Assembly: GCF_007859315.1 (NCBI RefSeq)
Contig: NZ_VOHA01000002.1
Span: forward strand, 248,001 to 312,000
DNA from: Reyranella sp. CPCC 100927
GTDB taxonomy: Bacteria; Pseudomonadota; Alphaproteobacteria; Reyranellales; Reyranellaceae
DNA: 64,000 bases
Reading direction: 5' to 3'
The translations under genes and the position numbers were made by a program. The notes under the pieces were generated by a model that saw only the letters and a list, made by a program, of their open reading frames with translations, was not told the origin of the DNA and did no database searches. Below are positions 42,713 to 49,873 of the stretch, in pieces. Numbering within the stretch: position 1 is the stretch's first letter; every line of letters begins with the position of its first letter.

Positions 42713-43717
42713 ATGAGCAAAGATATCACACGGCGCCGGCTGGTGCGCCGCGGCGTGGCATGGGGTGCCGCCGCGGCCGGTGCCCCGGCATTGCTGGCCG
42801 GCACAGCATCGGCGCAGGCATGGCCCAGCAAGCCGGTGCGCGTCATTGTCAGCCATCCGCCCGGCGGCCTGACCGACGCCTTCGCGCGCGCCTATGCCGA
42901 ATACATCTCCCAGAAGGTCGGCCAGGCCCTCGTGGTCGAGAACAAGACCGGCGCCAGCGGTATCATCGCCGCCGACTTCGTGGCCAAGTCGCCACCCGAC
43001 GGCTACACGTTGCTGGTGACCATCTCGACCACGCTGGTCATGAGCCAAGCCCTGTTCAAGAGCCTGCCGTTCGATCCCAACAAGGATTTCGTGCCGATTT
43101 CGTTCATGGACGCCGGCCACCTGCCGTTCATCGTCCACAAGTCGGTGCCGGCGACCAACGTCAAGGAATTCGCCGCCTGGGCGAAGAATAACAAGGTCAG
43201 CATCGGCAGCTATTCGCCGGGCTCCTACTCGCATGTTGCTGCCGCCGAGCTGAACAAGGCGCTCGGCCTGCAGATGGAAGTCGTGCACTACCGCGGCGAA
43301 GGGCCGATGTGGCAGGACATGCTGGCGGGCACGATCCACGCCGCCAACGGCAGCGTGGCAGCCGCCACCAGCGTGCTGCAGACCGGCGCCGGCCGGGCCA
43401 TCGCCGTGCCGCAGACGAAGCGCATGAAGAAGCTGCCCGACGTGGCAACGTTCCTGGAACAGGGCGTCAACGCCAAGGCGTTCCAGATCCGTGGCTGGGT
43501 CGGTCTCTTCGCGCCGGCCGGTACGCCCGAGGCGATCGTCCAGCGCCTGTCGGACCTGATGGTCGAGGCCGGCAAGACACCGCGTCTGCGCCAGATGCTG
43601 GACACCTTCGGTATCGACGAGTCCGCGACCGACCACACGACCTTCGCGCAGATCCTGCGCGACGAGAATCCCATCTGGATCGACCTCGTGAAGCAGCTCG
43701 GCATCGACCCGCAGTAG
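42713..43717 (+). CDS. Bug-family receptor with Tat-like signal, copy 1
   Basis: A 334-residue receptor. The N-terminus MSKDITRRRLVRRGVAWGAA has a twin-arginine-type TRRRLVRR motif followed by a moderate hydrophobic core and an ASAQA cleavage site, so Tat export is likely. The family core follows: AWPSKPVRVIVSHPPGGLTD, VGQALVVENKTGASGIIAAD, GSYSPGSYSHVAAAELNKAL and HYRGEGPMWQDML. The length equals that of the paralogue at 45048 and most of the sequence is shared. It likely binds a carboxylate for a TctAB permease. A family B palindrome follows. Confidence 0.9.
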   Translation: MSKDITRRRLVRRGVAWGAAAAGAPALLAGTASAQAWPSKPVRVIVSHPPGGLTDAFARAYAEYISQKVGQALVVENKTGASGIIAADFVAKSPPDGYTLLVTISTTLVMSQALFKSLPFDPNKDFVPISFMDAGHLPFIVHKSVPATNVKEFAAWAKNNKVSIGSYSPGSYSHVAAAELNKALGLQMEVVHYRGEGPMWQDMLAGTIHAANGSVAAATSVLQTGAGRAIAVPQTKRMKKLPDVATFLEQGVNAKAFQIRGWVGLFAPAGTPEAIVQRLSDLMVEAGKTPRLRQMLDTFGIDESATDHTTFAQILRDENPIWIDLVKQLGIDPQ

Positions 43718-45047: not shown

Positions 45048-46052
45048 ATGAGCCAGGACACCACACGGCGCCGGCTGCTGCACCAAGGTCTGCTGGTCGG
45101 CGCTGCCGCTCTCGGCGGCCCAGCCCTGGGATCCGGGCCGGCGCGGGCCCAGGCGTGGCCCAGCAAGCCGATCCGCATCGTGGTCAGTTTTCCGCCCGGC
45201 GGCCTGACCGATGCCTTCGCGCGTGCCTATGGCGATCACATCGCCCAGCGTGTCGGCCAGCCCGTGGTGGTCGAGAACAAGGCCGGCGCCGGCGGTATCA
45301 TCGGTGCCGACATCGTCGCGAAGTCGCCGCCCGACGGCTACACGCTGCTGTTCACCATCGCCACGACCATGGTGATGAACCGCGTTCTCTATAAGAGCCT
45401 GCCCTACGATCCGGACAAGGATTTCACGCCGATCTCGTCCATGGGCGCGGGCCACCTGCCGTTCATCGTCCACAAGTCGGTGCCGGCCACGAACCTCAAG
45501 GAATTCGCGGCCTGGGCCAAGACCAACAAGGTCAGCGCCGGCAGCTATTCCGCCGGCTCCTACTCCCATATCGCCATTGCCGAGCTGAACAAGGCGCTGG
45601 GCATCAACATGGAGGCTGTGCACTACCGCGGCGAGGGGCCGATGTGGCAGGACCTCACCTCGGGCGCGATCCAGGCCGCCAGCGGCAGCCTGCAGGCGGC
45701 CGCCGGCGTCCTGCACACCGGTATCGGCCGGCCGATCGCCGTACCGCAGACCACGCGCATGAAGAAGCTGCCTGACGTGCCGACCTTCCTGGAACAGGGC
45801 GTCACCGCCAAGGCGTTCCAAATCAACGGCTGGGTCGGATTCTTCGCACCTGCCGGCACACCGGACGCCATCGTCGAGCGCCTGTCCGATCTGATGGTCG
45901 AAGGCGGCCAAACCCCGCGCATCCGCCAGATCCTCGACACCTTCGGTATCGACGAGGCTGCCAAGGACCGCAGGACTTTCGCTCAGACCATGAAAGATGA
46001 GAACCAGATCTGGATCGATCTCGTGAAGCAGCTTGGCATCACGCCGCAGTAA
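45048..46052 (+). CDS. Bug-family receptor with Tat-like signal, copy 2
   Basis: A 334-residue receptor very similar to the one at 42713 (AWPSKPIRIVVSFPPGGLTD, VVENKAGAGGIIGADIVAKS, PFIVHKSVPATNLKEFAAWA, HYRGEGPMWQDLT). The N-terminus MSQDTTRRRLLHQGLLVGAA again carries a twin-arginine-type motif (TRRRLL). The paralogues flank the LLM oxidoreductase, so an old duplication of a receptor is likely, and each may bind a different acid. The ATG follows GGAGGACGACG. No TctAB genes are adjacent. Confidence 0.9.
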   Translation: MSQDTTRRRLLHQGLLVGAAALGGPALGSGPARAQAWPSKPIRIVVSFPPGGLTDAFARAYGDHIAQRVGQPVVVENKAGAGGIIGADIVAKSPPDGYTLLFTIATTMVMNRVLYKSLPYDPDKDFTPISSMGAGHLPFIVHKSVPATNLKEFAAWAKTNKVSAGSYSAGSYSHIAIAELNKALGINMEAVHYRGEGPMWQDLTSGAIQAASGSLQAAAGVLHTGIGRPIAVPQTTRMKKLPDVPTFLEQGVTAKAFQINGWVGFFAPAGTPDAIVERLSDLMVEGGQTPRIRQILDTFGIDEAAKDRRTFAQTMKDENQIWIDLVKQLGITPQ

Positions 46053-46226
46053 GCGTTTGCTTTCCCTGCCTTTGTTCACTGCTGCCGCGAGGACCCGTCG
46101 GCCGGGCACGCCATCATTGCGTGACCGCGCAATCATTTTTATCTGCGTGCGCCCGATTGACGGATGTCGGGATCATCACACTTTTGGTAAAGGGTAGCGC
46201 GTCGTGCAGGTCCACAGGAGGGATCG

Positions 46227-47399
46227 GTGAGCGAAGTCGTCGTCCAAACGCCGATGCAGTATCTCGACAAAGCGGTGGGTGCCTTGCGCGACCTCGGCCT
46301 GATGCCGGCCAAACAGGAGCCGGCGCCGATCAACGCGCTGCTGGAGAAGATCTCCGACCTGGAGCCCGAGAAGGTGCAGGTGATCGCCCGCACCCTGGGC
46401 CACGCCGCCGTATTCAACGAAGTGGTGCGCGATCAGATCGCGGGCATGACGATCGGCGATCGCTACAAGGCGATTACGGCAGGCTTCGATTCCATCCGCG
46501 ATGACGCCAAGCGCATGGTCGACCAGCTGTCGGACTCCAAGCTCGACATCATGGAGCGCGCCACCAATGCGTGGATGAAGATCTCGCGCGGCGACATTGC
46601 CGACCGCTTCGACAAGGTGAAGGAGATCTATCTCGAGGTCACCAAGGACACCAAGGGCCAGATCGATCGCGAGCACACGATCCTCGAGTCCTACCGCGAC
46701 TACAGGGGCGCGCTGAAGCAGGCAGAAGTGCTGGCGCTCGAGACGCTGAAAACGGCGACGGCCAAGCTTGACGGCGCCCGCGCGACGCTGAAGGAAGCGT
46801 CCGACAAGGTGGCCGGTTTCTCCGGCAGCGAGCCGGCCGAGCGCGCCCGCCTGGAGCTGGCACGCGACGAGCAGCTGCGCCAGGTCCAGGATGAGGAAAA
46901 GCGCTACCAGATCGCCAAGGACCTCTCGGACAACCTCACGATCTCGTACAACACCTCCGATGTCGTCATGGCGCGCCTGCAGCAGACCACCAACGCCAAG
47001 GAACGCATCTACGCCCAGTCCGTGACCTTCTTCTCGACCAACGACTCGGTGCTCACTGCGCTCAAGGCGTCGTTCACCGGCATGTTCGGGCTGCACGAGT
47101 CGACGGCCACGCTGGATGCCATGAAGGACGGCATCTCCAAGTCGCTCGATACGCTGTCGGAGATCGGCGCCAAGGTGCAGGAAGCGGCCATCAAGTCGGG
47201 TTACGGCCCCACCATCCGCGCCGACGCCGTCAAGAAGCTGGTCGACTCCGTCGTCAACTACCAGGAGCGCTCGCAGCAGATCATCGGCGAGATGCGGACG
47301 CTGGCGACCCAGAACGCAGCCGAGATCCGCGACGCCGTCGAAGACGGCAAGCGGCGGATCGCCAAGCTCGTCGCCGACGGACAGGCCCTGCCGCTCTGA
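46227..47399 (+). CDS. long alpha-helical protein, first of a three-gene unknown operon
   Basis: A 390-residue protein, almost all predicted helix, with no signal or membrane segment. Heptad-rich parts occur at about 120-215 (VKEIYLEVTKDTKGQIDREH, AEVLALETLKTATAKLDGAR). Short distinctive parts are MQYLDKAVGALRDLGLMPAK at the start and LKASFTGMFGLHESTATLDA near residue 280. It has a loose resemblance to TelA-like or surface-attached helical proteins, but I cannot assign it. The start is GTG after AGGAGGGATCG. Its stop overlaps the next start (TGATG), so translation is coupled to the membrane protein that follows. Confidence 0.75.
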   Translation: MSEVVVQTPMQYLDKAVGALRDLGLMPAKQEPAPINALLEKISDLEPEKVQVIARTLGHAAVFNEVVRDQIAGMTIGDRYKAITAGFDSIRDDAKRMVDQLSDSKLDIMERATNAWMKISRGDIADRFDKVKEIYLEVTKDTKGQIDREHTILESYRDYRGALKQAEVLALETLKTATAKLDGARATLKEASDKVAGFSGSEPAERARLELARDEQLRQVQDEEKRYQIAKDLSDNLTISYNTSDVVMARLQQTTNAKERIYAQSVTFFSTNDSVLTALKASFTGMFGLHESTATLDAMKDGISKSLDTLSEIGAKVQEAAIKSGYGPTIRADAVKKLVDSVVNYQERSQQIIGEMRTLATQNAAEIRDAVEDGKRRIAKLVADGQALPL

Positions 47400-48358
47400 T
47401 GCCGGCCGACTCGCCTGCCGGCGCGGCCGCCGCACCGGCCGTGCCGCGCGCCAAGCTCGACGACCTGATGCTGGCGATGGACGTGGTCGACACGCTGCGC
47501 CATCGCGAGCGCCTGGTCGAGCGCGAGCTGGCCGAGGAGGTCCGCGAACAGCAGCTGATCGAACGCCTGCGCGATCTCTACAAGAGCCAGGGCATCGAGG
47601 TGTCCGATGCCACGCTCGCCGAAGGCGTCAAGGCGCTCAAGGAGAGCCGGTTCGTCTACACGCCGCCCAAGCCCGGGCTGGGCCGCACGCTGGCCACGCT
47701 GTGGGTGAACCGCGCCACGCACGGCAAGTGGATCGGCGGCGTGCTGGTCGCGCTTGTCGCAGCGGCCGGCGTCTACCAGTTCGCGGTCGTGGGCCCGCGC
47801 GAGCGCGACGCCCGGGCTGCCCAGGTCGAGCTGACGGAAACCCTGCCGCGCCAACTGGCCGCGGCGCACCAGGCGATCACGACCGAGGCCCAGGTACCGG
47901 TCGCGCGCCAGCGTGCCGATGCCCTGCTCGCCCAGGGCCGCGCCGCGCTCGAACGCGGCAACGCGGCCGATGCACGCCAGGCCGTGACCGAGCTCGACCG
48001 CCTGGCCGCGACCCTGCGCCAGGAGTACACGCTGCGGATCGCCGGACGGCCCGAGGACCAGACCGGCTTCTATCGCGAGCATCCGAGCTTCCAGGGGCGC
48101 GCCTACTTCGTCGTCGTCGATGCGCTGGATGCCAACGGCAACGCGGTGCGCCTGCCGGTCCGCAACGACGAGACCAGCCAGACCGAAACCGTCTCGCGCT
48201 TCGCCGTGCGCGTGCCGTTGGAGACGTTCAACGCCGTGCGTGACGACAAGGCGAAGAACGGCATCGTGCAGAATGCGCGCCTGGGCGAAAAGCGCCGCGG
48301 GTACGTCGAGCCCGACTTCCGGATGCCGGTGCTCGAAAGCCGCATCACACGCTGGTGA
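47399..48358 (+). CDS. single-pass membrane protein, DUF6384-like, second gene of operon
   Basis: A 319-residue protein. A leading cytosolic helical part (residues ~15-95, with RAKLDDLMLAMDVVDTLRHR and LAEEVREQQLIERLRDLYKS) is followed by one clear transmembrane helix at about 108-127 (WIGGVLVALVAAAGVYQFAV). The rest (helices, then a beta-type domain with GRAYFVVVDALDANGNAVRL) is likely outside the cytosol. The resemblance to proteins annotated DUF6384 is from memory. The ATG overlaps the previous stop, and the next gene starts four bases after its stop. It may anchor the two helical partners at the membrane. Confidence 0.75.
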   Translation: MPADSPAGAAAAPAVPRAKLDDLMLAMDVVDTLRHRERLVERELAEEVREQQLIERLRDLYKSQGIEVSDATLAEGVKALKESRFVYTPPKPGLGRTLATLWVNRATHGKWIGGVLVALVAAAGVYQFAVVGPRERDARAAQVELTETLPRQLAAAHQAITTEAQVPVARQRADALLAQGRAALERGNAADARQAVTELDRLAATLRQEYTLRIAGRPEDQTGFYREHPSFQGRAYFVVVDALDANGNAVRLPVRNDETSQTETVSRFAVRVPLETFNAVRDDKAKNGIVQNARLGEKRRGYVEPDFRMPVLESRITRW

Positions 48359-48362
48359 GATC

Positions 48363-49745
48363 ATGTACACCGGACGCGACGCCCTCTCCTCCATCGAGCA
48401 GGCCATCAGCCGGGCCCGCGCCGACGAGAGCCGGCTCGAGAGCGCGCTGCGCTCGGCCAGCGACGAGGCCGCGCGCTTGCGGCGCGAGGAAGCCGAGGGC
48501 TTCCGGGCGCTGGCCCGCATCAAGCTCGACGCGATCACAAGCGACAAGGTCATCGGCGACCTCGACGCCACCGAGCGGCAGGCGCTGGCGATGATCGAGA
48601 CGCACGAGCGCGCGACCCAGGACCTGACGCGACGACGCGACGAGACCCAGGCCACCCTCGACACGGCGGAAGCTGCCAAGCACGACGCCGACCAGGCGCT
48701 GGCCGATGCCCTGCAGGTGCTCGATCAGCAGCGCCAGCGCACGGCGGACCGGGTCAGGGCAATGAGCGACTGGCAGGCCGCGAAAGCCGCCGTCGAGGCC
48801 GCCACGAAAATCGCCGCCAACGCCGACGAGAAAGCGGCGCTCGCCGAGGCCGACCTCGCCGCCAAGCGGCAACCCTACGAAGCCGATCCGCTGTTCATGT
48901 ATCTGTGGACCCGCCGGCACGGCCAGGCCGAGGACACCAGCGGCAATCTGGTGCGCTTCTTCGACCGGCGCATCGCCCGTCTGGTGGGCTACCCGGACGC
49001 GCGGGCGAACTACGCCATGCTGCAGGAAATCCCGACCCGGCTGCGCGAGCATGCCCAGGGCACGCAGCAGGACGTTGCGGCCGTGCAGGCGCATGTCGCC
49101 ACGCTGGAGCGGGCGGCCCTGGTCGCCGATGGCGCCGAGGCGCTCGAGGCGAAGGTCACGGCGGCCGAAGCCGCCGTGAAGGCCGGCGAGAGCGAAGTCC
49201 TGAAGATCACCGCCGACCTGCAGGCCATCGAGGCCGAGCGGCAGAAGGTGTTCGGTGTCGGCGACGGGGGTATCTATGGTGGCGCCGTCTCGCTTCTCGC
49301 CGACGGGCTGGCGCACGATGACCTGCGCCAGCTCTACGACGAAGCCCGCCGCACGCCGAGCCTGGCCGACGACGAGGTGATCAGCGCGATCACGACGGCG
49401 CGTGCCGCCTATGAAAAGGCCGACGGCGAGGTCGCCCGCATTCGCACCAGCATCCGCGACATGGCCAACCGCCGCTGGGAGCTCGAAAGCTCCCGCGACC
49501 GCGCCCGCAGCCAGGGCTACGAGGATCCGCGCGGCACCTTCGACGACAACAACCAGGTGCTCGACGTCATCGGCACCATCCTGGGCGGCGTCCTGCGCAG
49601 CGGCGTCCTCGATCGCACGCTGAGCGACAATCACCGGTCCTCGGGCGGCTCGTCATGGCCCGGATCGTGGGGCGGTGGCGGCAGCAGTTCCAGCAGCGAC
49701 GACCGCGGATCGGGCGGCGGCTGGCGCACCGGCGGCAGTTTCTGA
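48363..49745 (+). CDS. coiled-coil protein with Gly/Ser-rich tail, third gene of operon
   Basis: A 460-residue protein dominated by long charged heptad stretches (residues ~5-160 and ~210-300; e.g. SIEQAISRARADESRLESAL, AEADLAAKRQ). The middle segment DPLFMYLWTRRHGQAEDTSG and GNLVRFFDRRIARLVGYPDA is more compact. The last 45 residues are rich in Gly, Ser and Trp (GSWGGGGSSSSSDD), like the flexible tails of TPM/YgcG-type proteins. There is no signal peptide. The ATG at 48363 begins four bases after the membrane gene. I cannot assign a function. Confidence 0.75.
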   Translation: MYTGRDALSSIEQAISRARADESRLESALRSASDEAARLRREEAEGFRALARIKLDAITSDKVIGDLDATERQALAMIETHERATQDLTRRRDETQATLDTAEAAKHDADQALADALQVLDQQRQRTADRVRAMSDWQAAKAAVEAATKIAANADEKAALAEADLAAKRQPYEADPLFMYLWTRRHGQAEDTSGNLVRFFDRRIARLVGYPDARANYAMLQEIPTRLREHAQGTQQDVAAVQAHVATLERAALVADGAEALEAKVTAAEAAVKAGESEVLKITADLQAIEAERQKVFGVGDGGIYGGAVSLLADGLAHDDLRQLYDEARRTPSLADDEVISAITTARAAYEKADGEVARIRTSIRDMANRRWELESSRDRARSQGYEDPRGTFDDNNQVLDVIGTILGGVLRSGVLDRTLSDNHRSSGGSSWPGSWGGGGSSSSSDDRGSGGGWRTGGSF

Positions 49746-49754
49746 AGGCATCAA

Positions 49755-49852
49755 CCTCATCCTGAGGAGGCCGCGCAGCGGCCGTCTCGAAGGATGGCTA
49801 CTGACTCCGTGCGGTTGCCCACCCTTCGAGACGCTCGCTCCTCAGGGTGAGG
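49755..49852. repeat. inverted palindromic repeat, family C
   Basis: CCTCATCCTGAGGAGGCCGC...CGTCTCGAAGG on the left is mirrored by CCTTCGAGACG...CTCCTCAGGGTGAGG on the right. It is the kind of repeat common downstream of genes in Bradyrhizobium-type genomes. It follows the three-gene unknown operon. Confidence 0.7.
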
Positions 49853-49873
49853 TCTGTGCGTACATTGGCGCCT

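Follow-up and report, generated by a model that had tools for sequence, protein, structure and literature searches.

The analysed window is a 64,000-nucleotide stretch of the Reyranella sp. CPCC 100927 genome, in which three plus-strand genes form a compact cassette. The first (46227-47399, GTG start) encodes P1, a protein of 390 amino acids, and is preceded by an AGGAGG ribosome-binding site at 46216-46221 on the same strand, read in the sequence five bases 5′ of the GTG. The second (47399-48358, ATG start) encodes the 319-residue DUF6384 protein P2, and the third (48363-49745, ATG start) encodes the 460-residue P3. The stop codon of P1 and the ATG of P2 overlap as TGATG, and the ATG of P3 lies four bases downstream of the P2 stop; an earlier note on this DNA had described this packing, overlap and gap included, exactly to the base.

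The closest other genomes share DNA similarity that begins at 46214-46252 and stops at 49572-49745, with none beyond the cassette. No direct repeats marking mobile-element boundaries were found beside it, and no RNA element was matched in Rfam. A terminator-like hairpin between the upstream tctC and the cassette (46116-46133, plus strand) is a consensus match only, near chance expectation. Just upstream, 42713-43717 and 45048-46052 encode TctC-type substrate-binding proteins (PF03401) that resemble each other, and these transporter receptors were probably duplicated locally. Directly 3′ of the cassette, nested imperfect inverted repeats at 49743-49864 resemble a dispersed palindromic element.

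The earlier note had described P1 as almost wholly helical, and both P1 and P3 as lacking signals. The AlphaFold2 model of P1 (pLDDT 75.7) is indeed all helix, with helices at 124-196, 203-285 and 332-386, and neither protein has a hydrophobic window of transmembrane strength: the best 19-residue window of P1 reaches KD 0.75, which gives no transmembrane helix, and P3 reaches KD 1.39. The P1 model is of low confidence at 285-330, and a conserved segment at about 271-330 is poorly modelled; the most conserved 30-residue block of the protein, 271-300, overlaps the low-confidence region. For both P1 and P3, searches gave nothing above cut-off in Pfam or NCBIfam and no convincing family in PADLOC or PHROGs. 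ApoLp-III, a lipid-binding amphipathic bundle, was touched by 10 of the 43 P1 alignment members (best E 1.6e-5), a hint of amphipathic helices rather than of membership. P1 decays in some genomes: one copy carries a single in-frame stop (G790:C1:3670238-3671410), and another is partial and stands without P2 (G750:C30:113794-114558). One further genome, G708, carries P1 twice.

P2 belongs to DUF6384 over its full length (PF19911; E 2.8e-121, 404.8 bits against a cut-off of 25, profile positions 4-308 of 308). This is the only convincing family match among the three proteins. No known enzyme was found among them, as the earlier note had said, and the contrary outcome named beforehand, a match of each protein to an unrelated known family, was not observed. 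Hydropathy analysis revealed one hydrophobic helix, the best 19-residue window starting at residue 112 (KD 2.05). In the AlphaFold2 model (pLDDT 87), a helix spans residues 20-63, the transmembrane segment lies inside helix 105-163, and further helices follow at 167-185 and 189-207. The predicted layout comprises cytosolic N-terminal helices, a transmembrane segment at about 110-133, a three-helix bundle at about 138-208 and a beta-domain at 210-319. In 84 of 87 cases the N-terminal flank carried the higher net charge, with three ties, and the predicted topology is N-in/C-out, placing the helix bundle and the beta-domain in the periplasm. The single transmembrane helix and the beta-type domain had been anticipated correctly; the helices, proposed for one side only, are modelled on both. 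VIA-align matches to P2 fell mainly on the three-helix bundle rather than on the beta-domain. A WGR identity for the beta-domain was considered and rejected, the Foldseek rows being very weak (E about 3).

P3 is a coiled coil with the flexible Gly/Ser tail that had been reported: it ends in GGGGSSSSSDDRGSGGGWRTGGSF, the last seven residues being WRTGGSF. Across P3 homologues, the last 60 residues contain on average 48% Gly and Ser combined. The strict pattern T[GS][GD]xF ends 55 of 79 homologues and most of the others end in near variants, the usual terminus being FxTGGxF or a close variant of it. A flexible linker followed by a conserved terminal aromatic peptide is a docking-tail design, and by analogy the P3 tail may act in this way.

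The first set of loci came from the window's own genome, a further alphaproteobacterial genome that has two copies, and eight plasmids; all 11 loci hold P1, P2 and P3 in place. At one of them (L007), the third gene was recognised by position and alignment, having been missed by the single-sequence search. Scanning genomes with the P1 alignment recovered at least 506 relatives, of which 80 were kept. With profiles of all three proteins, the order P1-P2-P3 was found in 80 of 86 P1 loci; of the others, L043, L074, L082 and L101 lie at contig ends, and L103 and L104 represent the same region of Yersinia jumbo phage phiR1-37. A survey of 199 genomes from another alphaproteobacterial order found P1 in 49 and P2 above the cut-off in 48. 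All 48 P2-positive genomes also have P1 (tables compared by eye), and only G750, whose P1 is partial, has P1 but not P2. Furthermore, the distance matrices of the three proteins correlate with r of 0.88-0.93 over 73 loci, against a permutation maximum of 0.12. No recurrent partner outside the triad was found across genera. P1-P2-P3 is a self-contained cassette with conserved order and co-inheritance. A unit of three genes in fixed order with a single membrane anchor, as proposed in the earlier note, is what was observed, and its suggested comparison of gene order across genomes returned ordered triads, not homologues occurring mostly singly.

The TelA family takes its name from resistance to toxic anions, and its mechanism is, to our knowledge, unexplained. 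Initial shallow profiles of P1 and TelA gave no match, and a signal was seen solely with deeper alignments (29 TelA rows and about 97 P1 rows as hhalign input). These aligned collinearly end to end over 344 columns, with a local score of 36.6 and a global score of 33.5, the latter corresponding to P 2.8e-6 and a probability of 76%. The reversed TelA control scored 15.3, and the RmuC, XseA and PspA controls did not exceed 19.1 (local) and 3.4 (global). Shuffling TelA in column blocks of 7, 14, 28 and 60 (40 each, 160 in total) gave maximum local scores of 26.9, 26.6, 35.9 and 36.9, respectively, so that one of the 160 shuffles matched the local score of P1; the maximum global score was 30.3, and none of the shuffles reached P1's global score. 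PF05816 matched neither P1, nor any of the 43 P1 alignment members, nor anything across the whole Reyranella genome. When viral proteins were searched by fold with the P1 model, Foldseek matches 2, 17, 20 and 21 were named tellurite or toxic-anion resistance (TelA), with E-values that were all weak (best 2.3e-3) and low TM-scores; viral scans with TelA, and with P3, which offered no usable pattern, found nothing.

By profile comparison, P1 is likely, although unproven, to be a remote homologue of TelA. Such a relationship favours a role in envelope or toxic-anion stress. In related bacteria, TelA is accompanied at its loci by XpaC and, in the one tested, by an SPFH protein; at that alphaproteobacterial locus (L013 298-3679), XpaC (PF10112) lies upstream of TelA and an SPFH-GYF protein downstream. 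Both partners are absent from the triad, and profiles of P1-P3 run on TelA loci gave no matches, with P2 and P3 absent near TelA. The triad would represent another arrangement built on a TelA-like core.

A second structural resemblance was obtained against the PDB. All 14 top-ranking VIA-align rows for the P1 model are ClyA-type alpha-pore-forming proteins, with Z of 11.6-14.8; the tool itself cautions that a common arrangement can bring helix bundles to such values. The top alignment (Z 14.8 over 279 residues, rmsd 4.6) is within the range of helical models, and the first unrelated bundles appear at Z of about 10. The best Foldseek match of P1 in the PDB had an E-value of 0.016. As modelled, the ClyA resemblance of P1 is at the level of fold only. 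Its likeness to components of multi-part alpha-pore-forming toxins raises the idea that the triad is a secreted toxin of this type acting on other cells. We regard this as highly improbable: neither P1 nor P3 has a hydrophobic signal sequence, P2 is bitopic, there is no common sequence family, the PDB search with Foldseek never fell below the above E-value, and fold searches with P2 returned nothing of toxin kind.

Genome sampling covered one phylum. P1 was found in 1 of 76 genomes of the window's own order and in 2 of 398 of the phylum sample; in the 199-genome order, a quarter of the genomes, from many genera, carry the cassette, mostly in single copy. Because P1 occurs in only one of the 76 genomes sampled from its own order while a Hyphomicrobiales MAG encodes a P1 of 85% identity, these comparisons suggest horizontal gain of the cassette in the window's genome. 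Large plasmids carrying the cassette come from Bradyrhizobium, Microvirga, Rhizobium, Pseudomonas and the laboratory host Methylorubrum extorquens AM1, where it is on the megaplasmid, and at L099 it lies in an element adjoining an integrase. In phiR1-37, the triad corresponds to g190-g192 (L104 8965-12796), which have no product names in the record. The diverged third gene, g192, stands in the P3 position, has a weak P3-profile score and ends in GGGGGFSSSDSF like Pseudomonas P3 tails. Near the phage triad, g187 looks metallophosphoesterase-like by eye and has no Pfam match. A g190 mentioned in the literature beside phiR1-37 was set aside as a triad gene, since that paper concerns phage AR9's own g190.

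The patchy distribution, the likely horizontal gain and the carriage by phiR1-37, the integrase-linked element and megaplasmids speak for the main rival to the envelope-stress reading, namely defence against phages or competition among mobile elements. Here P2 would sense infection at the envelope, a ClyA-like P1 would perforate or alter the inner membrane, and phages would carry the triad to exclude rivals; the uniformly ClyA-type best matches of P1 would agree with such a pore-like activity, if the Z values are not simply those of helix bundles in general. We nevertheless consider this explanation unlikely. None of P1-P3 matched PADLOC at E 0.1, and presence in a quarter of the genomes of an order, across many genera and mostly as one copy, argues against it, as do the flanks. 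Those sampled contain mainly ordinary metabolic and transport genes, and the reading of the locus as a defence island was rejected, PADLOC on 117 flanking proteins giving scattered single matches with no recurring family.

In two Pseudomonas megaplasmids, a StiP gene precedes the triad by a few genes, and a dCTP deaminase is encoded downstream. The StiP cysteine protease of one (L007 2477-3544) was confirmed by Pfam and carries a PELOTA domain; that of the other (L010 2053-3123) is StiP by record annotation. StiP was not found beside the triad elsewhere in the sampled flanks, and the linkage is limited to these Pseudomonas megaplasmids, where it fits the stress reading.

The coiled-coil content of the triad and its one bitopic anchor would also suit a structural scaffold, at the pole or the division site, that gives the inner membrane or the envelope machinery its shape or position and has no inducible stress role, and carriage by many genera of one order could be read in the same way. 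However, a housekeeping function is unlikely because the triad is patchy and mobile and is missing from most relatives, and we judge the scaffold quite improbable.

Weighing these readings, we tentatively favour an inner-membrane-linked stress-protection complex, with P2 as sensor, P1 as membrane-active bundle and P3 as adaptor, as a possible function that stops short of being probable. P2 would span the inner membrane with its N-terminus inside, and its periplasmic three-helix bundle and beta-domain would sense envelope damage or a ligand. P1, as a cytosolic elongated TelA-related bundle, may act at the membrane face via its conserved flexible tip, while P3 would be a cytosolic coiled-coil adaptor docked to a partner by its Gly/Ser linker and FxTGGxF peptide. 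As with TelA and its XpaC and SPFH partners, the complex could make the cell more tolerant of toxic anions or membrane-active agents. Here we infer that the proteins form a complex, that P1 acts on the membrane, that P2 senses, that the tail docks and that the function is protective.

A bolder version is a long shot: an intracellular ClyA/TelA-like bundle, held at the inner membrane by the periplasm-sensing DUF6384 anchor and a tail-docking adaptor, would open or seal the membrane on demand in both bacterial and phage-borne forms. If true, it would join TelA-type resistance and alpha-pore-forming proteins into one superfamily. The unit is represented in public genomes by no fewer than 506 P1 matches and is carried by several megaplasmids and one jumbo phage, and the TelA family would become testable via a compact three-gene system in a laboratory strain.

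Among known systems, the Ter-linked stress module (StiP, PF11202; tellurite-like stress) resembles the triad's surroundings in the Pseudomonas megaplasmids, where StiP is near the triad, and differs in being found there and nowhere else sampled. The ClyA-type proteins XaxA, AhlB, YaxA, SmhB and ClyA resemble the P1 model in their elongated helix bundle; P1, known as a predicted model, differs in that no sequence similarity to them was found, and in having no secretion signal and other operon partners. TelA (PF05816) is similar to P1 in length (about 370-400 amino acids), in being all-helical and in lacking a signal. P1 nevertheless falls below PF05816 detection despite the collinear profile alignment, and the TelA operon, with XpaC/Halogen_Hydrol (PF10112) and SPFH Band_7_1 (PF13421), contrasts with DUF6384 and P3 in the triad. 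DUF6384 itself is described in Pfam as a family of unknown function, and we call the system undescribed in the sense that neither DUF6384 nor PF19911 is named in the open-licence literature searched; the present analysis adds its three-gene placement and the topology and domain model of P2.
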